DNA of 13,287 nucleotides from an uncultured Oscillospiraceae bacterium (GTDB lineage: Bacteria > Bacillota > Clostridia > Oscillospirales > Ruminococcaceae): contig CAKSHG010000038.1 of the NCBI GenBank assembly GCA_934456315.1, positions 1 through 13,287 of the forward strand, read 5' to 3'. Of the stretch, positions 477-13,287 are shown piece by piece. A program made the translations under genes and the position numbers. A model generated the notes under the pieces. The model was not told where the DNA came from and did not search any database. It worked only from the letters and a program-made list of their open reading frames with translations. Numbering within the stretch: position 1 is the stretch's first letter; each line of letters opens with the position of its first letter.

Positions 477-1967
477 TCAGAATTTCCAGACGATCTCGAT
501 TTTATCGTCCCACAGCAGTATCTTCTGTATGAACTGCCTTGCTATCGCGCCGCGGTTCTCTATCGGCATTTCGCCGAACTCCGAAAGCAGGGGGAGAACG
601 TCCTTATATGCAAGCGCCTGCGGAGCGCCGGAGGCGTGACTGCGGATTTCGGCTTCGACGCTTTCCCGCTCCCTGATGAGAGTTTCCAGCTTCTCCTCAA
701 GCACCTTTCCGATGGCGTAGGAGGTTTCGGCTATCCGGTCGACGAGGTTGTCTATCTGCGAGGATACCGTTTCCAGCCGCATTTTCAGCTTGTTCACGGC
801 GGGGCTCTGCACCGGCTTGTCCTCCTCAATGGAAACGTCCCGTATCTCCTCGAATTTCCGGAAAAGCTGCTCCCTGACTGCCTGCTCGACGTCGTCTATG
901 CGGGGATTTTCCTCAAAGCCGCCGCAGATTTTCTTGTTCGCCTTTCCCGAGCAGTAGAAGCAGTCCTTGTTGATTACCCGCAGAGCGTAGCCACAGTTCC
1001 CGCATTTTATCAGCCCGGTGAGCCAGGAGCGCGTGCCGGGCTTCCCCTTTTTGAGCTGACTGTTTCCGTCGAGCTTACGCTGGACGTCCAGCCATATCTG
1101 CGGCGGGATAACGCCGTCGTGCAGTCCGAGGGTCAGGACGTGGTCTTTCACGTCGGTGTACTTGCGCTCGTTCGCGGCGCGCTTTCCGTAGAGGAAGCAC
1201 CCGCGCTCCCCGGTGAACTCCTCCACCGGAGTGGAAACCTTACAGCCTTTTTCCCTGAAGTAGCGGTAGACGTCCGTATCCGCCATGACGTAGGACGGAT
1301 TCCGGAGGATACGGCTCACCATGCTGCTGTCCCACAGGGCGCCGCCGGGGGACTGCACCCCGTCGGAATTGAGCTGCTTTGCTATGTCCCCGAGGGAGGC
1401 GCGCTCCTCGCGGTAGGCTCCGTACATGTACTGCACGGTGGGCATATCGGCGTTCGGAATGAGCACGGAGGTCTTTATCCCGCCGAGGGCGGTCGGGACC
1501 TTATCGAACCCGAACGTCGGAGGTCCCCCGAGGTACATTCCCTTTTCGCCCCGGGCGTAGTAGTTGTCCTTTACGCGCATGAGGATATTCTCGCGCTCCA
1601 GCTCCGCGAAAACCATGATTATCCCGAGCATTGCGCGCCCTATCGGCGTGGAGGTGTCAAAAGTTTCCACCGTGGACGCGAACTCCACGCCGTACTGCCG
1701 GAACAGCTCCATGAGGTTTGAGAAGTCGTTCAGCGAGCGGCTTATCCGGTCGAGCTTGTAAACAACGAGCTTTGTTATCGCGCCGCTCTTTATGTCGGAT
1801 AACAGCCGCTGGAACTCCGGGCGGTCGATGTTCTTGCCGCTCCAGCCCCTGTCTGTGTAGACGCGGCATTCCTCCGCAGCGGCGAAGCGCCGGCAGAATT
1901 CTACCTGCGTGTCTATTGAAATGCTGTCCTTTTTGTCGATACTCTGTCTTGCGTATATCGCAGTCAT
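477..1967 (-). CDS. Large serine recombinase / site-specific integrase
   Basis: A 496-residue serine recombinase that cuts and rejoins DNA at specific sites through a 5'-phosphoserine intermediate. The N-terminal resolvase/invertase catalytic domain spans about residues 1-145, with YARQS holding the nucleophile Ser9 and YKLDRISRS (70-78) matching the DRLSR signature. A Recombinase-type DNA-binding domain follows at about 165-300. Next comes a zinc ribbon at about 320-350, with Cys322, Cys325, Cys336/339 and Cys348. A coiled coil covers about 390-445, and there is a short C-terminal tail. This is the usual large-serine-recombinase architecture, at the short end of the size range. The start at 1967 is supported by AAAGGA 6 nt upstream. 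It lies 18 nt after a 50-residue ORF and ends in its own terminator, so the two genes form a small operon. No other mobile-element genes (relaxase, excisionase, capsid) are nearby. All key residues are present, so it is probably active. Whether it integrates an element or inverts DNA cannot be told. Confidence 0.93.
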   Translation of the reverse strand: MTAIYARQSIDKKDSISIDTQVEFCRRFAAAEECRVYTDRGWSGKNIDRPEFQRLLSDIKSGAITKLVVYKLDRISRSLNDFSNLMELFRQYGVEFASTVETFDTSTPIGRAMLGIIMVFAELERENILMRVKDNYYARGEKGMYLGGPPTFGFDKVPTALGGIKTSVLIPNADMPTVQYMYGAYREERASLGDIAKQLNSDGVQSPGGALWDSSMVSRILRNPSYVMADTDVYRYFREKGCKVSTPVEEFTGERGCFLYGKRAANERKYTDVKDHVLTLGLHDGVIPPQIWLDVQRKLDGNSQLKKGKPGTRSWLTGLIKCGNCGYALRVINKDCFYCSGKANKKICGGFEENPRIDDVEQAVREQLFRKFEEIRDVSIEEDKPVQSPAVNKLKMRLETVSSQIDNLVDRIAETSYAIGKVLEEKLETLIRERESVEAEIRSHASGAPQALAYKDVLPLLSEFGEMPIENRGAIARQFIQKILLWDDKIEIVWKF

Positions 1968-1985
1968 TTTTTGTCCTTTCAGCGG

Positions 1986-2138
1986 TCAGGCGGTTTTCTG
2001 CCCGGACTGCTCCGTTTTGCTTTCCAGGTAGCGGAGAAGTTCCCGGTAAACGGCTCTTGACGCGTCGGCTTTCAGCTTCTCTTTCTGCGCGTCCGTCGCG
2101 GGGGGATATGTATTCACCACGGTGTATTTCGGCTGCAT
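1986..2138 (-). CDS. 50-residue hypothetical protein upstream of the serine recombinase
   Basis: A short frame of 50 codons on the minus strand starts MQPKYTVVNTYPP and ends GQKTA followed by TGA at 1986-1988. AAAGGA lies 10 nt before the start codon. The stop is only 18 nt before the recombinase start, which has its own AAAGGA, so the two genes look co-transcribed. The protein is hydrophilic, with a charged helical stretch (about residues 17-42, rich in Lys, Glu, Arg and Leu) and no membrane segment or clear DNA-binding motif. It could be a recombination directionality or accessory factor, since such small genes often sit beside large serine recombinases, but nothing in the sequence proves a function. 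A longer overlapping frame starting at 2148 runs into the recombinase gene in another phase and was not chosen. Confidence 0.6.
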   Translation of the reverse strand: MQPKYTVVNTYPPATDAQKEKLKADASRAVYRELLRYLESKTEQSGQKTA

Positions 2139-2162
2139 ATTTCATCATTCCTTTCCGCCCGT

Positions 2163-2171
2163 TGGTATTAC
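2163..2171 (+). repeat. Right copy of the 9-bp direct repeat (TGGTATTAC)
   Basis: Partner of 434-442. It lies 25 bases upstream of the 50-residue ORF start. A shorter related GTATTAC recurs 31 bases further right (2196-2202). It is a possible attachment-site core or a recombinase or regulator binding site; a chance match is not excluded. Confidence 0.25.
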
Positions 2172-2266
2172 ATTGTTATGAGGGCGGTCCGGATAGTATT
2201 ACTGTAGTTGCCGCAGATAACTTTTTCACATTCAGGCATTTTGGGGCGATAATCAGGAAGAAATTA

Positions 2267-2295
2267 TTGACAGCGGCGCTATTTAATAGTATAAT
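2267..2295 (+). promoter_or_regulatory. Consensus sigma-A promoter of the dockerin protein gene
   Basis: TTGACA at 2267-2272 and TATAAT at 2290-2295 are separated by exactly 17 nt, so both boxes match the housekeeping consensus perfectly. Transcription would start around 2302, leaving a 5' UTR of roughly 58 nt before the ATG at 2360. A promoter this close to consensus suggests strong basal expression, possibly checked by a repressor or by the leader hairpin. Confidence 0.88.
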
Positions 2296-2314
2296 AGTTG
2301 TAACTAAGATGTTT

Positions 2315-2340
2315 TCCGGACAAGCCGTGCGGCTTCCGGA
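2315..2340 (+). promoter_or_regulatory. Leader hairpin in the 5' UTR of the dockerin gene
   Basis: TCCGG (2315-2319) pairs with CCGGA (2336-2340), and AAGCC (2322-2326) pairs with GGCTT (2331-2335), with a 2-nt bulge on the left side and a GTGC loop. It ends 6 nt before the Shine-Dalgarno AAAGGAGG (2347-2354), which remains unpaired. It could stabilise the mRNA or serve as an operator or protein-binding site. There is no T-tract, so it is not a terminator. Confidence 0.4.
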
Positions 2341-2359
2341 GCATTTAAAGGAGGATACG

Positions 2360-5300
2360 ATGACAAACAGATCATTCACCCCCGGCAGGCTGTGCGGAAT
2401 GCTGACCTGCGCCGGGGTCTTACTGGCGATGATACCGCTGGTATCCGTTCCCGCGTCTGCGGAGAGCGCCGCAGTTACGGCGGACTACACCATGGATTTC
2501 ACCGGAGCAGCTTCGTGGAGATACGTCGACAAGAACGGCGACGAGCAGGTGTTTGACGCTTCGTGCGCTGACAGGATAATCGAAGCCAGGGACTGGACGT
2601 GGTACGGAAACGACCAGGGCGGCACAGAGCCGAACTCTCTCAAGATATGGAGCGAATTCAGCTTCGACACCACCGCGCAGAACGCGATGACCCTGCCCGC
2701 AGGAAGCACCGTGGTTTTCCAGTACGACGCCGAGATAAACGCGAAGCAGAACTGCATATACTCCGACGGTGATCTCACCCTGACAGGCGACCCGTATGTC
2801 GATCCTGATACAGGCATGACTAAATTACTTACTCTGACGTTCGGCGACTCCGGTCTGTATTCCAAGGGAGATCTCACTGTCGACAACATCGACCTGTACA
2901 CCGACCCGGATTCCGTTGAAAGCTACGACAACGCGGTCCTCGCGAACGGTATGTTCAGGCTCCAGGACTGCTACTTCTACGCCGGGGACGCGTGGAATGG
3001 CACCAACGTCGTCAACTGCACAAATTACAACATAAGCAGGGGTACCATCATAGATATCCCATTCTCGTATTTTACCTCGATAAACGGCTACGGCAACTAC
3101 ATTGCGGATATAAGCTATGTGGAAAATGCAAAGCCTCTCGACATCGATATCCCGCTTGAACGCGGTAAGAGCTACATCAATACCACCGCCACCCTCTGTT
3201 CCGCCGACCGCTCCGGGCGAATGAGGCTCGACACCGCGGAATTCAAGGTCAGGTCCGGCGACCTTTTCATTTACGAGAAGGCTCTGTCCGACCCGGACAG
3301 CAGGGACGACCGCAAGACCCTCGGCGGCAAGACCTATAAGACAGACCTTTCGGAACTGGTATACGGAAATCCCGACAAATACAGGATAGTGCTGTCCTGC
3401 GATTCGCCGGATAAGAACCTGTACACCTATGAGGTCAGGGACGGGGCATTTGAGATAACCGTTCCGAACAAGGAGCTGGACGACAGTCTGACCGTCACGG
3501 TCGAGGTGACCGACGACAAGTACGAATACAGCTCCAAGGAAACCAAATCCTTCAATTTCGTAGTGGGACAGCCGGTAAAGACAAACAGGCTCGGCATCGG
3601 CTACAACAGCAATGCCGGGGGTACGCTGAAGGACCATGTCGACATTTCCCTCACCCACGGCGATACGGAGCTTCCGCTCTGCGAATCCTCCGGGTACTGC
3701 TACTTTATCCCGGCGGGGTTCGACTGCAATCTCTCCCTCCTGCCGAAGGACGGCGAGGTACAATTCCTCCAGCTCGGAACAGAGGACATAAGTCCATCAA
3801 TCGACGGAAACTACGATATTTCCCTGGACGGCGACAAGGAGCTGTCTTTCTGGTTTTATGAATCCGATACGCCGCAGTACGTCACGGTAGGAATTTCGGA
3901 CGAGCTTGTCCGCGCTTTCCAGAGCGGCGGAGTGACCAGCGTCACCGTCACCGATTACCTCGGAAGCAAGCAATGGCGGCTGGATTCGGGCGCCTTCGAT
4001 TTCCCGTTCAACTACCTGAACGACAGATATATACAGATAGATATAGTGACCGACGGCTGCGGCGTTACCGACATCTGCGGCGAAACGCCGGATTACCGCG
4101 CGGAAAAGAAATATTATACCGCTGACTTCACAGTAAGCGGCGACTTCACCGTAACCGCCCCGGTGCGCGAGGTTTGCGGCTTCAAGAAACTGATTAACGT
4201 CAACGGTATACCGCCTGTCGTAAAGGGCGACAGGGACGTTTCCGGCGGGTTCTATCCCGGCGTGGAGTATGAGATACTCGTGCCCCGCGGCAGCGGCAAG
4301 CTCAATGAGGGCGCTGAATTCAACGGCGCGGCTGTCGAGCCGTTCAGCGAGGACTCCGACGGCTGGCACTACAGGGTAGCTCCCGTCAGCGGAACGGACA
4401 ACACCTTCATCTGCAAGTGCAACGACGTTTCCCTGCTAAGGCTCGCAAAGCCGGAGCACGGCGCGATAGCGTTCAGCGGCAGGCTCGACAACGGCAGAGG
4501 CAAGTCCGCCCTCGAGGACGGCACCGAGGTCTACACGCTGGGAACAGGCGATAAGATCACCCTGACGTTTACACCGGACGAGGGGTACCGCCTGGCTTCC
4601 GCTGCGCTGGACGGCTCCGAAATTGCCGTCGGCGCGGACGGCACATACTCCTTCATGCTGGAACAGCTCGTAGACTGGACTGTAACGGCGAAGTTCGAGA
4701 AGATAGCAGTACCCAGCACGGTCACCGTAAACTGCGGCAAAAACGGCACAGTAACCCCCGGCACCAAAGCCTGCGAAAACGGCTCGGAGGTCGTCCTGAC
4801 GGTAACTCCGGACGATGGCTACAAAGTTAAGTCCGTGACCCTGGACGGCAGGGCGGTAGCGCTGACCGACGGAAAATTCACGTTCACCGTAACGGCTGAC
4901 TGCACGTTCGCGGTTGAGTTCGAGAAGATTGCGGAATCCCATACCGTGACCGTGAACTGCGGCAAAAACGGCACAGTAACTCCCGGCACGAAATCCTGCG
5001 AAGACGGCGCGGAGGTCGTCCTGACGGTTACTCCGGACGCGGGATACAAGGTGAAGTCCGTGACCCTGGACGGCAAGGCTGTAACGCTGACCGACGGAAA
5101 ATACACGTTCACCGTGACGGCTGACTGCACATTCGCGGCGGAGTTCGAGAAGCTGTCCGGAGGTTCTTCGGGAGGTTCCGGCGGCTCGGGAAGCTCCGGC
5201 AGTTCCGGAAGCTCCAGACCCTCTGCGGCAAAGCCGGAGAGCACTCCGATCATGAACGGCGCTCCGATAAGCTGGAGCGATATCGCAAAGGATCTTGGAA

Positions 5301-5920
5301 AGCTACCGGACGGCGGCTCTGCGGAGATATCGCTGAACGGCGAATACACAGTCCCTGCCGACCTCATCGGCGTGATCAGGGACAGGAAGCTCACCGTGGA
5401 GTTCATATCTGACAGCGTCAAGAGCTGGGTAGTACGCGGCGGGGACGTTACCGTGACCTCGGCGGCTGATTTCTCAGCGCTCCCGGGCAATGCGGATAAG
5501 AGTGCGCTCCGCGGCGTTCCGGGCGCTGACCTGAAGGTAAGCGGGACGACTGTCCCTGCTGAACTGAAGCTGCATTTCCGCAGGGAATTCGCGGGGCAGT
5601 TCGCGAATATCTACAGGCTGAATGGCAATGCTCCGGAGTTCATCGGCTGCGTAACGGTAGGCGGCGACGGTTATGTGAACGTCCCCGGAGTCTGCAATGC
5701 CGGAGAGTACATCGTGATGGCCTGCGAATTCAGCGGCCTTAACGGCGACGCTGACAACGACGGCAGTCTGACCGCCCTCGACGCTTCCGCTATCCTGAAG
5801 GACATCGTAGGCGCGGCGAAGCCCGCGAACCCGCTGATGTGCGACTTCAACGGCGACGGCGCAGTCAACGCGCTGGACGCTTCCGCCGTGTTAAAGGCGG
5901 TCGTTGGCATTACGGCGTGA
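2360..5920 (+). CDS. Secreted dockerin-containing multidomain protein with InlB-B-like repeats
   Basis: A 1186-residue exported protein. The frame is open further upstream, but the start at 2360 is fixed by AAAGGAGG 5 nt before the ATG, a consensus promoter at 2267-2295 and a signal peptide: basic N-end, hydrophobic core, VPASA cleavage site near residue 34. Residues 35 to about 690 are beta-rich extracellular sequence that I cannot place in a family. Then come one divergent and two near-identical repeats of 75 residues (about 690-935; each with CGKNGTVTPGTK and GYKVKSVTLDG), resembling divergent InlB B-repeats. A Ser/Gly linker (about 935-960) and another unassigned beta-rich region follow. 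Residues about 1126-1186 form a type I dockerin with two calcium loops (DADNDGSLTALD and DFNGDGAVNALD). The dockerin docks to a cohesin, placing the protein in a cellulosome-like complex. No glycoside-hydrolase motif was recognised, so it may be a binding, structural or adhesive component. Confidence 0.93.
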   Translation: MTNRSFTPGRLCGMLTCAGVLLAMIPLVSVPASAESAAVTADYTMDFTGAASWRYVDKNGDEQVFDASCADRIIEARDWTWYGNDQGGTEPNSLKIWSEFSFDTTAQNAMTLPAGSTVVFQYDAEINAKQNCIYSDGDLTLTGDPYVDPDTGMTKLLTLTFGDSGLYSKGDLTVDNIDLYTDPDSVESYDNAVLANGMFRLQDCYFYAGDAWNGTNVVNCTNYNISRGTIIDIPFSYFTSINGYGNYIADISYVENAKPLDIDIPLERGKSYINTTATLCSADRSGRMRLDTAEFKVRSGDLFIYEKALSDPDSRDDRKTLGGKTYKTDLSELVYGNPDKYRIVLSCDSPDKNLYTYEVRDGAFEITVPNKELDDSLTVTVEVTDDKYEYSSKETKSFNFVVGQPVKTNRLGIGYNSNAGGTLKDHVDISLTHGDTELPLCESSGYCYFIPAGFDCNLSLLPKDGEVQFLQLGTEDISPSIDGNYDISLDGDKELSFWFYESDTPQYVTVGISDELVRAFQSGGVTSVTVTDYLGSKQWRLDSGAFDFPFNYLNDRYIQIDIVTDGCGVTDICGETPDYRAEKKYYTADFTVSGDFTVTAPVREVCGFKKLINVNGIPPVVKGDRDVSGGFYPGVEYEILVPRGSGKLNEGAEFNGAAVEPFSEDSDGWHYRVAPVSGTDNTFICKCNDVSLLRLAKPEHGAIAFSGRLDNGRGKSALEDGTEVYTLGTGDKITLTFTPDEGYRLASAALDGSEIAVGADGTYSFMLEQLVDWTVTAKFEKIAVPSTVTVNCGKNGTVTPGTKACENGSEVVLTVTPDDGYKVKSVTLDGRAVALTDGKFTFTVTADCTFAVEFEKIAESHTVTVNCGKNGTVTPGTKSCEDGAEVVLTVTPDAGYKVKSVTLDGKAVTLTDGKYTFTVTADCTFAAEFEKLSGGSSGGSGGSGSSGSSGSSRPSAAKPESTPIMNGAPISWSDIAKDLGKLPDGGSAEISLNGEYTVPADLIGVIRDRKLTVEFISDSVKSWVVRGGDVTVTSAADFSALPGNADKSALRGVPGADLKVSGTTVPAELKLHFRREFAGQFANIYRLNGNAPEFIGCVTVGGDGYVNVPGVCNAGEYIVMACEFSGLNGDADNDGSLTALDASAILKDIVGAAKPANPLMCDFNGDGAVNALDASAVLKAVVGITA
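4720..5158 (+). repeat. Tandem 225-bp coding repeat (two copies) in the dockerin gene
   Basis: Two consecutive units with a 225-bp period (AACTGC at 4730 and again at 4955) encode 75-residue modules nearly identical in protein and largely identical in DNA. A third, more divergent module precedes them at about 4435-4715. The nucleotide similarity points to recent duplication and makes copy number prone to change by homologous recombination. Confidence 0.8.
5743..5911 (+). other. Type I dockerin module (C-terminus of the secreted protein)
   Basis: Two 22-24 residue duplicated F-hand segments are spaced by a short linker. Each has a calcium loop with Asp/Asn at positions 1, 3, 5 and 12 (DADNDG...D and DFNGDG...D) followed by the helix ALDASA(I/V)LK. 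The helices carry the cohesin-recognition surface. The near-identity of the two helices fits the dual-binding-mode symmetry known for type I dockerins. Confidence 0.92.
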
Positions 5921-5942
5921 ACCTTAACGGCCTGCGTAAGTG

Positions 5943-5983
5943 AATAAAATGACCCGCTCCTGCTGTGAAAGCCGGAGCGGGTC
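5943..5983 (-). terminator. Hairpin terminator between convergent genes
   Basis: GACCCGCTCC (5951-5960) pairs perfectly with GGAGCGGGTC (5974-5983). After one mismatch the stem continues for 3 more bp (AGC-type), leaving a 5-nt loop. On the minus strand it is followed by ATTTTATT, so it best serves the rdrA-rdrB transcript, 56 bases past the rdrB stop. On the plus strand it lies 30 bases past the dockerin gene stop but is followed by GCGTATTATT, a poor T-tract. It may still act in both directions. Confidence 0.7.
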
Positions 5984-6038
5984 GCGTATTATTCAGCTTA
6001 TTCAGCGGGAAGTTCCTGCTGACCGCCAGAGAGCCGTT

Positions 6039-8702
6039 TCAGTGATTGAAAGCCTGGGAAAATCCGTTCTCGCGCAGTTTCTCAAGATAACTGTAAATGG
6101 CGTCATCGTTGTACACCTGTTCGAGGTTTTCATTTTTTATTGAGCGTATCGTACACGCGAGAAAAGAATACTCCATAGCCAGCGATGTATCAAACACACC
6201 CTGGTCGTCCGTATTGACTGAAACGAACTGCACTGTTTCCTGCGCAGAAGGGGAAACGGGGAAAAATCTGAATATCGGGTGCTGTTCATATTTGTCAAAG
6301 GGTCCGATGAGGACATTTGACGAGGGATTGCTTTCTATCCCTATATGCTTTCCCGCCAATTCCTTCATCATTTTATCCTGAAGCGCCGTGACCATGGAAA
6401 TGTACTGCTCGGTTATTCGGACAGCCTCTGTTTCATTCCCCTTTTTTCTCGCCCCGATGTCATAATGATACATTGAATAGAGCCTCGCCGCCTTTTGGTT
6501 ATTTCGTATCAGGTCCAGCTCCTTTGATTCGTAATTCATCTTTTTGTGCTTGTTATACCAGTAGCAGGCTCCATTTATGTGGTTTTTCAGCGGCTTATCG
6601 TATACTTCTTTGTCGTATTTTTCATAGCGGTAAAGCCCGGGGTCGTCGCCCCTTAGACGCCAGCCGTTGTAATAGTCTATCAGCGAAAAGCCGTCCCCAT
6701 AAATATAGGACATGAGCTGATGAGCCTTTTCTTCAAGCTGCTGTTTGAGTATGCTGTCGATGTAAATTCCATATTCCTGCGTTTTTTTCAGTGCCCAGAC
6801 AATATTGTCAAGGTGATCCTGTATTCTTAGCACTATCTTATTGTTCTTGAGAGCATAGTATTCAGGAGCGCTTACTCCCAGCGCCATCGCATGACCTATA
6901 CGCTCGCCTGTTGTCATGTCAAGGAATAGTGTGGCTTCATCTATCGCCCTCAGGCCGTCGACAAGGTCCATGAAGTCCTCTCCGGCATGATAGGTGGCGT
7001 ATAAATGAGGCTGGAAGTTCTCTTCACAGAGCGGACTGCTTTTATGCCCTGAAATGCAGAAATCCCTTAAGAACCGAAACGCGACCGCAAAAACCTCCGG
7101 CCGGCAGCCGATTTCAAAATTGCATGCGTCTATCCCTCTTATCCTGCGGCATAAATACGGTTCCCTTTCAAGCGAACCTGCAATAGCCAGAGCTTGTTTC
7201 TCCGTGCTTTTTCTCACTTTGGAATTTCTGGGATCGACAGCCCAGCGCTCGGCTTTTTCCTTTGGGTTTTTATCCTCGTCAGGAAATTTCGGAAAATGGA
7301 GAACGTAGAAATAATCGTTTGAATCGCTGAATCCATGATGTTTCATTTTCAGCATATAATCCTGGGTCCCGGTCCCGTTCAAAGACATGATGACCTGATC
7401 GGTTTTCCGTATTGCCATGATTTGGGCGTCCACTTTATTTTTAGGTCCGATCCTCATTTCAAGGGAGCGGACATTGCCATTTTTCATGCTTTCAACTACA
7501 GAAAGGTTCTTGGCTTCACGGTCATATACGGGGTACATATCAAAGATCTTGTCCTTTCTGTTCTGGTACAGGGCAAAATTCTTGAATCCATATCTCTGAT
7601 TGACCTGTATCATTTCATTGCGGAATTGGCTTTTTATCAGCAGATACAGATAAAACAGGTCCATGAAACGCTTCATCTGATTTTTGTCGACATTCGTTTT
7701 CGAATAGATGAACTTAAACGCCTTATACAAGAAAGAACGTTCTCCTGCCAGTGAACGGCAGCAATCATCTGACTCATAAGCAGGAAGCACGTCCCGGGTT
7801 ATCGCATAGTCTATATGATTCTGTACGCTCCTGAGATGGTACTTGGCGGCGTCAATCCTACTGCAAAGCGGGGTTATTGAAAACGATCCTTCAATAAAGC
7901 GCTGCAATGCCTGTACCGAATTCATTTTGTTGTCGGCGGCATTCTCGCTGCCGAACTTCAGCCAGAGCAGAAGAGAGGCCCGCAGCCAGCAGGCTATTTT
8001 AAGGCGCAGTACCCAGTCGATACGGTTGTCGTTTGCGCCAAGCGACACGCCGGGATTAAGGTTCTCGTGAAAAAGGTTGTAAAAAATGTACTCGTCATGC
8101 TTGACCTTAGCTTTGAAGTAAGTCAGTATCCGTGCCGGGTGGTTCATCAGGCATATCCATGAAAGGTCGAAGCAGCGGGTCGAGCCGTTAAGATGAAAGT
8201 GGTTTTCGGCGAGTCCCTTTTTCAGTATCTCATCGAGCCTTCTGTCATCAGTGCGTATCTGCGCCGGCCATGTAAAATGATTGAGATGCTTAAATCCCTG
8301 CGTATCAACATACGCCATATGAGCCGTCGTCAGAAGATCCTGTCCCAGATAAAGATAACAGTATCTCCAGTTAAGAAGCTGATCCTGACGGCAGATCGGC
8401 TCATTTTCATATGTGCTCAACACCTGCAGCGTATATTCGGGCAGAAGCGCAAATACGCTTTCACCGCCGCAGCTTTCGCCGCGCTGTTTTATCGTATGCT
8501 GCATATCATCATATAGCATGTCGATCTCCTCATAGGTGAGATTGCCGAGCAGCTGACCCGCGCAGTGATGATATGTAAGTCTGCTCACTTTTTCAGAGCT
8601 GATATTGAGCTGTTCTTTATCCGGATCATTCAGAGCGTTTAGCATCAGTTCCGGCTGGATCTGACTGAACACTATCCTTAGATGGTTCCTTAGCGTCTTC
8701 AT
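6039..8702 (-). CDS. rdrB: RdrB, adenosine deaminase of the RADAR anti-phage system
   Basis: An 887-residue divergent member of the adenosine deaminase superfamily, matching RADAR RdrB in length, motifs and gene order. All metal and catalytic motifs are visible: HFH (168-170), HAGE (572-575), RIGHA (601-605), SNPSSN (791-796) and NTDD (830-833). These supply the zinc-binding histidines and aspartate and the catalytic Glu and His of this fold. Large inserts (about residues 190-560 and 620-780) separate the motifs, which explains why it is more than twice the size of housekeeping adenosine deaminase. Published RdrB assembles into a large shell, partners RdrA, and converts adenosine to inosine in RNA and/or ATP/dATP to ITP/dITP on infection. 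The start at 8702 is supported by AGGAG 9 nt upstream. The first 77 nt overlap the end of rdrA, implying translational coupling. A hairpin terminator follows at 5943-5983. No inactivating change was seen. Confidence 0.92.
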   Translation of the reverse strand: MKTLRNHLRIVFSQIQPELMLNALNDPDKEQLNISSEKVSRLTYHHCAGQLLGNLTYEEIDMLYDDMQHTIKQRGESCGGESVFALLPEYTLQVLSTYENEPICRQDQLLNWRYCYLYLGQDLLTTAHMAYVDTQGFKHLNHFTWPAQIRTDDRRLDEILKKGLAENHFHLNGSTRCFDLSWICLMNHPARILTYFKAKVKHDEYIFYNLFHENLNPGVSLGANDNRIDWVLRLKIACWLRASLLLWLKFGSENAADNKMNSVQALQRFIEGSFSITPLCSRIDAAKYHLRSVQNHIDYAITRDVLPAYESDDCCRSLAGERSFLYKAFKFIYSKTNVDKNQMKRFMDLFYLYLLIKSQFRNEMIQVNQRYGFKNFALYQNRKDKIFDMYPVYDREAKNLSVVESMKNGNVRSLEMRIGPKNKVDAQIMAIRKTDQVIMSLNGTGTQDYMLKMKHHGFSDSNDYFYVLHFPKFPDEDKNPKEKAERWAVDPRNSKVRKSTEKQALAIAGSLEREPYLCRRIRGIDACNFEIGCRPEVFAVAFRFLRDFCISGHKSSPLCEENFQPHLYATYHAGEDFMDLVDGLRAIDEATLFLDMTTGERIGHAMALGVSAPEYYALKNNKIVLRIQDHLDNIVWALKKTQEYGIYIDSILKQQLEEKAHQLMSYIYGDGFSLIDYYNGWRLRGDDPGLYRYEKYDKEVYDKPLKNHINGACYWYNKHKKMNYESKELDLIRNNQKAARLYSMYHYDIGARKKGNETEAVRITEQYISMVTALQDKMMKELAGKHIGIESNPSSNVLIGPFDKYEQHPIFRFFPVSPSAQETVQFVSVNTDDQGVFDTSLAMEYSFLACTIRSIKNENLEQVYNDDAIYSYLEKLRENGFSQAFNH

Positions 8703-11541
8703 TCTTTTCTGCTCCTGTAGGGTCGTTTTGAGGATCTGTATTATCCGCGGGCGTTATTTCTTTGGATTTAGCTTCTCTGGCTCCATCGTCATCTTTCGGC
8801 TTTGGTTTCTCTATGCCGAATGTGTCTGCAACAGCATTCATGATACCATCGACAATACCCTTTTTATTGATAGCTTTACGCCAATTCTTGACAGCTGTCG
8901 ACATTTTAGCTGCTGACAGCTCGAAAAAGAGCTCATATGAGGTTTGGCTAGAAAAGTGCTGAATGATATCATCTTCTGCTGATAATATCGCCTCATACTT
9001 TTCATCTATATTTTTGATCGGCGATTTCGAACCGGTCAGCTTTTTTAAGGTCAGAAGTTTTTCCATGTTTCCCCTCAACGCTGACATAATATTTTCCTGG
9101 ACGAATAGTTTTGTGACGGAATTGTCACCGTTATCGCTGATCTTAATAACCGCATCTGGTATCTGTTCGGTGACCTCTCTCATGCTGGAAATTGCATTGT
9201 CTGCTATTAACCTGATATTGTCGTAATTTGTATAGAAGAAATTATTATCGACTTTAAAACTGTTTTCCGGCATTTGATTTTTATTGTTAAGCTCCAGATA
9301 TGGCAGGTTTAACTGCGATTCATTGTCTGAAGCGGAGATCATGGTCGTGCCGCAAAGAAGGTTTATCAAAGCATTACTTCCAATGATCGGGTCAAGATGT
9401 TTTGTTTCCGTTATTTTTGAACTTTCAGCGTATTTTGTTATCTGATGGAACACGTCCCAGTTTATCAGGACATTGTACAAATGGTTCAGGCATGCCAGTT
9501 GAGCGCGGTCGCGCGTCAAATAATACTCCTGCGTGGTAAGAAGCGACAGAAGAAATGCGGAAATATCAAAGCAGATAGTTTGTCTTTCTATCAATTCTTC
9601 TTTCTTATGCTTGGTCGGCATAACTATTCTCGTATAATTGTCGTTGGTCAGTACATAGCAGTACTTGCTGATCATAATTCTCATCAATTCAAGATTCTGT
9701 GACTGAACCGATTCTCCATCTTCTTTTTCCGGAATGCTGTATAGCTTTTTCAAAACCTTGATATTGACCTCAAAATGTCCGAGATTCTGATATTCGGCGC
9801 CAAAGATCTTTGCGTAGTCAAAATTCCACAGCACACCGCCGGTGATCTCGTACACCCAGCTGAAATCGTTGTTTTTCATACCGCCAAGCATTTCTCTGTG
9901 CAGGAATATTGTAAAAAACATACGCAGAGCGAAAACCAGCTTATAGGTCTGCATGAAATCCCGCTGGTTTCGTGCATTTTTAGAGAGTGCAGAAATAAGC
10001 CGCATTAAATTGGCATAGGTATACTCCTGCTTTTCCTCTGTTGTTATGCCGTACCTGTTGATAATGTCGGTGACTATATTTATCGCAGAAGGTACCTTAA
10101 GGGAATCGACAGCGCCTGCCAGTTTTAAAATTATCTGATAGTTTTCCTTGGACAGATTTCTGTCGCACCAATTATAGATGAAATAAACCTGAAGAGCGTC
10201 CAGGTTGCCAAGCCGTCTGGAGATGGCTTCCTGTATCTGGCTATCCTCGTTATTGTTTGCGGCTGCATTCAGGAGCGCTGCATACATGTCGGCATAGCCC
10301 AATTCTTCATTGAGGTCCGGCAAGGCGTTGAAATACGACAAAAAGTGCGTAAGATCCCTCATGTTGCCGGGAATGAAATTGTGGAGATAATGACCCGGCT
10401 TGACGAGGTCGACGCCCGTCTTTTTGTGTATCAGATTTATGAGCCTTTCCTGATAATCCGACGGAGAATAGGTAAGCAGGTCCCTTTCTTCCTTATCTGA
10501 CTTCCCGGTGTATTCCAGCTGCAGTCTTGAGCTGTTGTTTACAATGAAATCGCTGATAACCGGCAGATGTATCTGATGGGTTGCCGGGAGTATCTTATTC
10601 AGGTATCTGACCGTCATATCCTGTGGGCTGCGTGTATCAGAAATATTGTAGCTGTCAGACTTATAATAGTCCAGCAGCGGCTTGAACTCTACGATAAAGT
10701 GCTGCTCAATGATCTGGTGCATCTGATCCATATTCACTGCCATCAGCAGTATTACATTAGGGATAATACAATACTTGCGTATATCCTCGATTATTTCGAA
10801 GGATTTCTGGGTATTTAGGTCGGCGTCGTCTACCAGCATGACCAGATAGCTGTCTTTGGTATTTCCGTGGATCTGATTCAGATAGCAGTCTACCAATTCC
10901 CTGAAGGTGTTTTTGAGTCTGCTGAAATCTCCGAGCTCGGTAAGCTCCTCGAGGTCGCTGTCTGAATTCGTGTCCTTTTTCTTGCTATAGATAAAGTCAA
11001 GCAGCTTATAGCATTCCGTAAATTTCTCGACGACTTTGCTTCGTGCATACATTGTCTGCATATCGCCTGAATTCCTGGTGTCATTGTCGTCTTTTTCCCA
11101 TTTCATACGGAGGTCGGAAAACATGCGCGATATGGTTATGCGCATGAAGCTCTCGTCCGAGGAAATGCTGCATGGGTCTATTGGCGAAAGTACAGAGAAG
11201 TTGCAGACCTTTGCCTTTTCACCAAGTAGATTATATAATGCGTTTTTTTCATCTCTTTCTTTTTTTGATAAATCATACAGCGAATTAGCGACAGACAGCA
11301 TTGCGGTGGATTTTCCGCCGCCTCTTTCTGCGCAGTATACTATTATATTATTGTGATAGTATTTGTCAAGTATACTGTTTCCGTAGTCTGACCTGTCTGT
11401 GGCAGAGCAAATTTCGTTTATCAGATCGGCACTTCTTTTATATGCATAATAAAAGAATTTTTCTGGTTTGTCCAGATCCTTTTCGATAAGAAACCTGTCC
11501 TCGAAGCCCTTGCTGACTTTGATCATTTTAACATCGCGCAT
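8626..11541 (-). CDS. rdrA: RdrA, P-loop ATPase of the RADAR anti-phage system
   Basis: A 971-residue ATPase. Walker A is AERGGGKST (71-79). Walker B is LVMLVDDAD (233-241). A sensor-1-like MAVN at 267-270 follows a hydrophobic strand (NVILLMAVN), as in AAA+/STAND-type NTPases. The large C-terminal part (about 300-900) is helical-looking with no motif I can name. The last 60 or so residues are very polar and rich in Asp, Glu, Lys and Pro, probably disordered, and are encoded where the frame overlaps rdrB. In studied RADAR systems RdrA forms a ring, works with RdrB and is needed for phage sensing or delivery of substrate. The family call rests mainly on the P-loop plus adjacency to an unmistakable RdrB. 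The start at 11541 has AGGAGG 8 nt upstream (11550-11555). A hairpin with a U-tract lies immediately upstream of that RBS. The gene is more AT-rich than the left half of the window. Confidence 0.88.
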   Translation of the reverse strand: MRDVKMIKVSKGFEDRFLIEKDLDKPEKFFYYAYKRSADLINEICSATDRSDYGNSILDKYYHNNIIVYCAERGGGKSTAMLSVANSLYDLSKKERDEKNALYNLLGEKAKVCNFSVLSPIDPCSISSDESFMRITISRMFSDLRMKWEKDDNDTRNSGDMQTMYARSKVVEKFTECYKLLDFIYSKKKDTNSDSDLEELTELGDFSRLKNTFRELVDCYLNQIHGNTKDSYLVMLVDDADLNTQKSFEIIEDIRKYCIIPNVILLMAVNMDQMHQIIEQHFIVEFKPLLDYYKSDSYNISDTRSPQDMTVRYLNKILPATHQIHLPVISDFIVNNSSRLQLEYTGKSDKEERDLLTYSPSDYQERLINLIHKKTGVDLVKPGHYLHNFIPGNMRDLTHFLSYFNALPDLNEELGYADMYAALLNAAANNNEDSQIQEAISRRLGNLDALQVYFIYNWCDRNLSKENYQIILKLAGAVDSLKVPSAINIVTDIINRYGITTEEKQEYTYANLMRLISALSKNARNQRDFMQTYKLVFALRMFFTIFLHREMLGGMKNNDFSWVYEITGGVLWNFDYAKIFGAEYQNLGHFEVNIKVLKKLYSIPEKEDGESVQSQNLELMRIMISKYCYVLTNDNYTRIVMPTKHKKEELIERQTICFDISAFLLSLLTTQEYYLTRDRAQLACLNHLYNVLINWDVFHQITKYAESSKITETKHLDPIIGSNALINLLCGTTMISASDNESQLNLPYLELNNKNQMPENSFKVDNNFFYTNYDNIRLIADNAISSMREVTEQIPDAVIKISDNGDNSVTKLFVQENIMSALRGNMEKLLTLKKLTGSKSPIKNIDEKYEAILSAEDDIIQHFSSQTSYELFFELSAAKMSTAVKNWRKAINKKGIVDGIMNAVADTFGIEKPKPKDDDGAREAKSKEITPADNTDPQNDPTGAEKNEDAKEPSKDSVQSDPAGTDAKRSE
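8703..8716 (-). promoter_or_regulatory. RBS of rdrB inside the rdrA coding sequence
   Basis: On the minus strand AGGAG lies 9 nt before the rdrB ATG (8700-8702), entirely inside the 3' end of rdrA, whose stop is 77 nt further on. It fixes the rdrB start and implies that ribosomes finishing rdrA feed or unmask rdrB. Confidence 0.75.
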
Positions 11542-11549
11542 GTGTCGCT

Positions 11550-11555
11550 CCTCCT
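11550..11555 (-). promoter_or_regulatory. Shine-Dalgarno of rdrA
   Basis: AGGAGG on the minus strand, 8 nt before the ATG at 11539-11541, fixes the rdrA start. It lies directly behind the U-tract of the upstream hairpin, so the hairpin and its U-tract are part of the rdrA leader if transcription reads through. Confidence 0.85.
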
Positions 11556-11597
11556 AAAAAATTTGGAGATCAAAATTAGCTATATTTTGATCTCCAA
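11556..11597 (-). terminator. Intrinsic terminator / attenuator between the upstream gene and rdrA
   Basis: On the minus strand TTGGAGATCAAAAT pairs perfectly with ATTTTGATCTCCAA (plus-strand 11584-11597 and 11563-11576; 14 bp, 7-nt loop) and is followed at once by ATTTTTT (11556-11562). It begins 10 nt after the stop codon of the upstream gene and ends next to the rdrA Shine-Dalgarno. By form it is a Rho-independent terminator, though the stem is AT-rich (5 G-C pairs), so it may be leaky. Since no clear promoter fits in the 66-nt gap, it would set how much transcription enters rdrA-rdrB. Confidence 0.8.
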
Positions 11598-11607
11598 TAA
11601 TGCTAAA

Positions 11608-13287
11608 TTAATTCTGCTGCGGATACATATTACGGTATTCGTTTAATTCTTTTCTTTGCGCGACCGATCTTTTGATCATCTGCGCAAAGAGAAGATTGCT
11701 CTGTGATAATCCCGGGCACTCGCGCCGGATCTGGTCGTCGACCTCTGTGCTGTTTATCCAGTTGATATCCCAGTCATGCAGCCGCTGACCAGAGGAATAA
11801 AGATATCTTACATAATCACTAAGTTTGTTCTGCAGTTCCGGATTTTTTCCATAGAAATCTGCTATTCGTTTGATGATCTCATTTGGGTTGCTGTTGCAGT
11901 CTTTTTCCATCTGGACAAGGACTGGCAGGTGATCAGAATATTTTTTCGGGTGAATGAACTGTGATTGTTCACCGGTACGATAAGCGCAATAAAAACTGTC
12001 GCCGTTTCTGGAATCCGACCCCAGAGAAATCTCGCCCATATCCATCTGCCGAAGCATATTTGCGACAAGTTCCATGATCTCCTGGTCATTATATTTCATA
12101 ACAGGGCTTTGTCCTATCCTGCTGAAAAGATTTCTCACGTCTTTTCTCGGCTTGATCTCTACGGACAGGTTCTGATTCAAAAAGTCGTTGTTTGCCTTTA
12201 GTTCTAATTCTTCGCCCTCCTTCGCTATGGTTTCTTCAAACGCTTCCGAGAGTGAAGTATATTTAAATAATATGCTCGGCTCTGCCTTCTCTTTCATGAC
12301 AGGCCCGGAGCCTTCAGAACTATTGTATATAAATGCGTCAAGCTGTTCCCAGCTTAAAAACGGAGCCGTGTGTTCCATCAATTCAGCAAATGCCCTGCCA
12401 TAAATGGAGCGCACTCCGAAATTCATCATTATCTTGTCTGTATCAAGGATATCGTTTGTGACCGGGATCCTGGGATCGTACTGATTCAGCAGCAGCATAA
12501 AGTCATAGTTAAGGGTCATGTAAAGCAGTTCGGCACAGGACCTGTCTGCGAACGAAGCAGCTTCCAGCCCGGCAATGATATCGGCGCTGAATATTTTATA
12601 GAACAGCTCCCGGCAGAAGGACGTTTTGATATCCGGAAGAATGATGAACGGGATAACGCTGTATCTGTCAAGCGTAGTGTCTTGAGTTATTCGCAGGGTG
12701 TAGAAAGCCTGATAGTCGCCATTGGCGTTTTTCAGCGGCTTTACCCAGACGTCGCGCACATTCCGGCTGTTCCATGACGATCTGCTGAAGCCACTGTTTG
12801 AAGCGACCTGCGCAACATATTCGTGGAAAGGCTCTCCTGATTGCTTTTCATACATAGTGAGCGTATAGCTTGTATTGGAAAACGAGCCTTCGCCGTTTGC
12901 ATACGCGATCTTAAATGAAAAATCGCGCCATCTGTATGAACTCCATGCATGGAACGGATATCCGGAGTCCAGCATTCTCTGGAAGTAAGCAGGCTTCATT
13001 AAAAGCGCCCTGTCGCTCTGGACTATCGTGATGACGCTGATGGACCTCAACACTTCGCTTTCTAGTTCCTGATAGTCCATCTTTCGTCCTGCATTTTTCA
13101 GAAGCTCATATATCTTATGGATAAATGTATCCAGCAGCCGTCGGATCGCCCTGCCGTGGATCAGTATATCATCTGCGATCAGTATTTCCGGGAAAATGCC
13201 TCTGGTCTGATATTCATTCACGATTTCGGGGATATAGGCGAACAATGCGCTGTCAGAGATCATAGTATCCTCAATACCCGCCAGCGC
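11608..13287 (-). CDS. Unidentified protein with a phosphoribosyltransferase-like motif, upstream of rdrA (probably 5'-partial)
   Basis: The frame is open to the window edge. An internal ATG at 13263 has GAGG 5 nt upstream and would give 551 residues, but the eight codons before it read smoothly (ALAGIEDT) with no stop, so the true start may lie outside. Counting from that ATG, residues 27-39 (ILIADDILIHGRA) resemble the PRPP-binding signature of type I phosphoribosyltransferases: hydrophobic strand, two acidic residues, hydrophobics, Gly. The usual T-G-x-T is replaced by H-G-R-A. Such a fold needs about 80-100 residues before this motif, which also argues for a start beyond the window. The remaining 500 residues show no family I recognise: no membrane segment, no P-loop, mixed alpha/beta. 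It sits 66 nt upstream of rdrA on the same strand, separated by a hairpin terminator/attenuator. It may be a RADAR accessory, a separate defence gene or an unrelated neighbour. Confidence 0.75.
   Translation of the reverse strand, partial: ALAGIEDTMISDSALFAYIPEIVNEYQTRGIFPEILIADDILIHGRAIRRLLDTFIHKIYELLKNAGRKMDYQELESEVLRSISVITIVQSDRALLMKPAYFQRMLDSGYPFHAWSSYRWRDFSFKIAYANGEGSFSNTSYTLTMYEKQSGEPFHEYVAQVASNSGFSRSSWNSRNVRDVWVKPLKNANGDYQAFYTLRITQDTTLDRYSVIPFIILPDIKTSFCRELFYKIFSADIIAGLEAASFADRSCAELLYMTLNYDFMLLLNQYDPRIPVTNDILDTDKIMMNFGVRSIYGRAFAELMEHTAPFLSWEQLDAFIYNSSEGSGPVMKEKAEPSILFKYTSLSEAFEETIAKEGEELELKANNDFLNQNLSVEIKPRKDVRNLFSRIGQSPVMKYNDQEIMELVANMLRQMDMGEISLGSDSRNGDSFYCAYRTGEQSQFIHPKKYSDHLPVLVQMEKDCNSNPNEIIKRIADFYGKNPELQNKLSDYVRYLYSSGQRLHDWDINWINSTEVDDQIRRECPGLSQSNLLFAQMIKRSVAQRKELNEYRNMYPQQN

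Follow-up and report, generated by a model that had tools for sequence, protein, structure and literature searches.

Does the 13,287-nucleotide stretch of DNA analysed here (the window; contig CAKSHG010000038.1 of an uncultured Oscillospiraceae bacterium) hold a complete phage defence system, and which genes belong to it? The first-pass annotation had read its rdrA and rdrB genes as a complete RADAR operon. We found that the pair is almost certainly RADAR, in a distant version, as indicated by sequence, profile matches, gene order and the RdrA fold. Known RADAR relatives respond to phage attack by poisoning the cellular ATP pool. The operon is not complete, however, since a conserved upstream gene, open reading frame 3 (ORF3), was overlooked and runs off the contig end. 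We consider it probable that the three genes form a RADAR subtype, in which a protein with a predicted phosphoribosyltransferase (PRTase) fold may sense nucleotides and regulate rdrAB.

The rdrA and rdrB genes

The rdrB gene (6039..8702, minus strand) encodes an 887-amino-acid protein of the adenosine-deaminase family and rdrA (8626..11541, minus strand) a 971-amino-acid AAA+ ATPase, both at the positions annotated before. As in other RADAR loci, rdrA lies directly 5' of rdrB on the same strand. The window RdrB matched the NCBIfam RdrB model (E-value 8.6e-61; 206.5 of 800 bits, short of the curated NCBI cut-off), the PADLOC RdrB model (6.3e-34) and solved RdrB chains (4.6e-26). All five deaminase blocks that had been called intact were located: HFH at residue 168, TYHAGED at 570, GERIGHA at 599, NPSSN at 792 and NTDD at 830. 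The protein is a deaminase of the RdrB family with its metal ligands and catalytic Glu. Residues H168, H170, H572, E575 and H604 were invariant in eight of eight RdrB-like rows; the DD of NTDD was kept in the seven rows that reach that far, the row of the viral locus L003 stopping at its contig end. The rdrB start is backed by the N-terminus of a Clostridia relative (L001) and by an AGGAG site.

RdrA matched the NCBIfam RdrA model (9.9e-17), under the curated NCBI cut-off, and gave no match in PADLOC. It belongs to the AAA+ ATPases of the RdrA family by its Walker A (GGGKS at 74) and Walker B (LVDDAD at 236) motifs, which had been noticed earlier, and has Arg395 within NMRD; K77, D238, D239 and R395 were invariant in all 37 aligned RdrA homologues. 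The predicted monomer model has an AAA+ fold matching that of solved RdrAs, at 10-14% aligned identity. In the RADAR assembly, RdrA is a heptamer that docks on a dodecamer of RdrB. The profile and structural checks that the first-pass annotation had proposed thus favour its assignment to RADAR. The RADAR systems of Escherichia coli, Citrobacter rodentium and Streptococcus suis (PDB 8fnt, 8fnu, 8fnw, 8hr7) share the rdrA-then-rdrB order, the AAA+ fold and the deaminase catalytic residues with the window, but the low RdrA identity, the missed NCBI cut-offs and the extra ORF3 set the window apart. Because both core proteins score under the NCBI naming-model cut-offs, the subtype probably goes unnamed in annotated genomes.

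The earlier claim of a single transcript stands in part: the 77-base overlap of rdrA and rdrB and the AGGAG a short way 5' of the rdrB ATG fit one mRNA, the operon being read from sequence alone. Judging from the intact residues, the system presumably works as defence. The same ATP-to-ITP antiviral strategy is described for Cad1, a CARF-adenosine deaminase of type III CRISPR that is gated by cyclic oligoadenylates through its CARF domain (available text of PMC11645235). Unlike Cad1, the window RdrB carries A_deaminase and no other domain in Pfam; a weak match to the PADLOC CARF_ADA model was recorded (2.3e-07).

A third gene linked to rdrAB

ORF3 (11608..13287, minus strand) lies 5' of rdrA and is separated from its ATG by 66 bases. 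Its 5' end is lost at the contig end, leaving 559 readable residues against roughly 600-660 amino acids in its relatives. The window is probably the whole contig, as the longest contig of the RdrA cluster also measures 13,287 bases. Since relatives have a third gene before rdrA, the word 'complete' was wrong for this subtype. We collected relatives of ORF3 in 57 clusters by sequence search and in 54 by profile search, four of them new, for a total of 61.

Three ORF3 loci were read as DNA (the window, L001 and L003), the other clusters being known by the size of their longest contig only. All three share the order ORF3-rdrA-rdrB. In L001, a Clostridia metagenome-assembled genome (CALZUA010000005.1), ORF3 lies at 9983-11881, RdrA at 11922-14666 and RdrB at 14700-17414. 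In L003, an IMG/VR contig (3300006217_000118), ORF3 lies at 7919-9703 and RdrA at 9881-12250, and RdrB starts at 12275 and reaches the end of the contig; the L003 ORF3 is 23% identical to the relative P0001. Eleven of 44 RdrA clusters had a longest contig of exactly the same size as that of an ORF3 cluster (for example P0007 and P0062, 60,577 bases), while 60 shifted comparisons gave one coincidence in total. The other 33 clusters, among them P0071, the tree neighbour of L001's RdrA, are uninterpretable for linkage. Across 14 pairs (the 11 with matching longest contigs, the window, L001 and L003), RdrA and ORF3 distances correlated at r 0.98, or 0.977 without L003, with 0 of 5000 permutations reaching either value. 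The linkage extends to RdrAs of as little as ~31% identity and to one viral contig.

ORF3 was not found by profile at any of ten other RdrB-like loci (L021-L030) or four viral ones (L032-L035). The RdrA profile identified a partner in four of those ten (L021, L024, L025, L027); L023 has an annotated rdrA, and at L022, L028 and L030 the neighbours are long and without a match. No recognisable RdrA neighbour was present at L026 (RdrB-like gene at 7939-10689) or L029 (8779-11511). At L025 the contig extends ~840 bases 5' of RdrA and holds a 180-amino-acid ORF there. In a tree of 48 RdrA rows, 13 of the 14 ORF3-linked rows fell in one 35-row clade (support 96/95); the L003 RdrA was placed elsewhere, in a group with weak support. 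The RdrAs of L021, L025 and L027, which lack ORF3, grouped in one 8-row clade (99/99), and that of L024 was separate. The tree needs two label changes, so a single origin of the linkage is not established. Taken together, ORF3 is likely part of the RADAR system.

Known RADAR subtypes include rdrAB, rdrABC (with Csx27) and rdrABCD (with SLATT) (available text of PMC7699616). The Csx27- and SLATT-associated systems likewise combine a RADAR core with accessory genes, and the best RdrB match in the plasmid collection was an Aureibacter RADAR with a SLATT gene (32.2% over 100%). Those accessory genes are of membrane type, whereas ORF3 encodes a large protein with a predicted PRTase fold and precedes rdrA. 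We noticed no csx27 or SLATT gene in the list of window ORFs, on a contig that ends inside ORF3 and without a profile search for these families. No paper joining RADAR with a PRTase-fold gene was found in the literature searched, which covered few subscription papers; within it, the ORF3-rdrA-rdrB arrangement is an undescribed RADAR subtype.

Fold and possible role of the ORF3 protein

None of the 61 ORF3 clusters had a precomputed Pfam domain. In a fold comparison with a model of P0001, 46 of 50 rows among the matches listed were phosphoribosyltransferases or PyrR, and the Foldseek and VIA-align listings were both headed by hypoxanthine-guanine PRTases (HPRTs). The PRTase-like core spans residues 29-209 and includes a DDxxxxGR loop that ORF3 shares with PyrR and HPRT, both type I PRTases; ORF3 differs from them in having ~420 more residues and replacements in the loop. 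Asp115, Gly120 and Arg121 were conserved in 61, 63 and 57 of 63 sequences, respectively. In active type I PRTases the Asp and Thr of this loop are catalytic, and we take the catalytic Asp of 6-oxopurine PRTases to be the D of EDIIDTG in the HPRTs compared. ORF3 lacks both: Ile or Val stands at the Asp place in 60/63 sequences and His replaces Thr in 56/63. These replacements make catalysis by ORF3 less likely. The loop profile was closer to PyrR than to HPRT, with the sequence match confined to 22-25 columns; the PyrR family matched by profile over the loop only (25 columns), and NF003549 was hit in three of 32 ORF3 members (best E-value 0.0053). The core thus appears, on the predicted model, to be type I PRTase-like with a degenerate, PyrR-like loop for phosphoribosyl pyrophosphate (PRPP).

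Two relatives, P0003 and P0006, lack both Asp115 and Arg121 and are possibly partner copies without a ligand. Another, P0002, is near-identical to the window ORF3 across the first half and diverges clearly across the second, as if mosaic.

In RADAR, RdrA docks on RdrB and infection leads to conversion of (d)ATP to (d)ITP, and the activation trigger is called unclear, according to the available text of the structural paper (PMC9994260). In the mechanism that we favour, the RdrA ring and RdrB deaminase shell would act as in known RADAR, with RdrB converting (d)ATP to (d)ITP on infection and so halting phage growth. ORF3 would bind PRPP or a nucleotide and set the activity or expression of RdrA-RdrB, rather than serve as an ordinary salvage enzyme. 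We propose this sensor or regulator role tentatively. The RADAR output is itself a change in the nucleotide pool, and a conserved partner whose fold commonly binds PRPP or nucleotides would offer a direct handle on what activates the system.

One form of regulation could act through the leader of rdrA. The 66-base spacer (11542..11607, minus strand) holds a terminator-like hairpin (11597-11563) of 13-14 pairs with a T-run, ending 22 bases 5' of the rdrA ATG and adjoining a AGGAGGAG site. The spacer folds at -17.4 kcal/mol (z -3.86; 2/200 shuffles as stable), and a hairpin scan of the window gave -15.7. Hairpins of other sequences lie 19 and 38 bases before the rdrA starts of L001 and L003; dinucleotide shuffles were as stable in 0/100, 2/100 and 0/100 cases for the window, L001 and L003. 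Because there is no promoter room between hairpin and gene, rdrAB transcription in the window and L001 should cross the hairpin; at 12115-12088 the window has its closest upstream promoter match on the same strand. L003 shows a promoter match at 11 of 12 positions (TTGACC-17-TATAAT), followed ~85 bases on by a terminator-like hairpin and then rdrA, the layout expected for attenuation. Six other rdrA starts yielded one clear hairpin, at L022, and the window is rich in terminator-like matches in general (21, versus 13.0, sd 4.4, after shuffling). Searches of the window, L001 and L003 against Rfam gave nothing at gathering score. The pattern at the three loci is suggestive only. It is a long shot that ORF3 acts as an RNA-binding regulator of the PyrR kind, sensing nucleotides and opening the rdrAB leader terminator upon a phage-driven change in PRPP or nucleotides; if true, this would make transcription attenuation the trigger of an abortive defence. 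The L022 hairpin (4816-4961) precedes the rdrA of a Cetobacterium plasmid RADAR without ORF3, so hairpin leaders may extend beyond the ORF3 subtype.

RADAR products are inosine nucleotides (available text of PMC9994260), which would suit a three-gene RADAR whose ORF3 is a catalytic PRTase that forms or removes a nucleotide with the help of PRPP and so adds to or tempers the poisoning, for instance by draining PRPP or handling inosine products. The HPRTs heading the structural listings and the near-invariant Asp115 and Gly120 point the same way. We regard this as unlikely, given the replaced Asp and Thr places and the two relatives without Asp115. It is also improbable that this is an ordinary two-gene RADAR, with ORF3 a frequent unrelated neighbour and the hairpin its normal terminator. 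Known RADAR does operate with two genes (same text of PMC9994260), ORF3 was not found at 14 other RdrB-like loci, and terminator-like matches are common; yet the linkage persists among divergent RdrAs and in a viral contig, RdrA and ORF3 co-diverge, and the window and L001 hairpins, 19-22 bases before the rdrA start, leave no promoter room.

That these genes are RADAR relatives with another role, or a decayed copy, giving no phage defence seems very improbable. The strong divergence and the scores under curated cut-offs fit such a reading, and the window copy, with its ORF3 cut, cannot be judged whole. Against it, the key residues are retained, one copy lies in a viral contig (L003), and the L001 copy is flanked by type I-B retron genes on one side and helicase genes on the other.

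Genes around the three-gene unit

The AT-richer block reported earlier was recovered, with a GC content of 0.42-0.46 across ORF3, rdrA and rdrB versus 0.58 in the genes for the recombinase and the dockerin-bearing protein. A large serine recombinase is indeed present (477-1967, minus strand), but 'beside' overstates its proximity: it is ~4.1 kb from rdrB, with the 3.6-kb gene of a dockerin-bearing protein (2360-5920, plus strand; dockerin domain by Pfam) in between. The latter contains two 225-base tandem copies, 85% identical, at 4673-5122, where Pfam places InlB-type repeats, and a 12-of-12 promoter match (TTGACA-17-TATAAT; 2267-2295) lies 65 bases 5' of its ATG (2360). A tRNA scan of the window found none.

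In L001, the RADAR genes are preceded by a type I-B retron-like pair at 683-3856 (ATPase-Toprim_I-B, 7.8e-152; RT_I-B, 1.1e-85) and by a second RdrB-like deaminase at 5621-8356, which is 31% identical to a Cetobacterium RdrB and is without a visible RdrA partner. Two ORFs 3' of rdrB (17780-21364) gave helicase-type matches (MkoC, 2.1e-14; PF13087, 5.6e-15). The three-gene RADAR of L003 (region 382-14158) is terminal on its 44-kb IMG/VR contig, whose end truncates rdrB, and the genes preceding ORF3 there read like phage tail genes.
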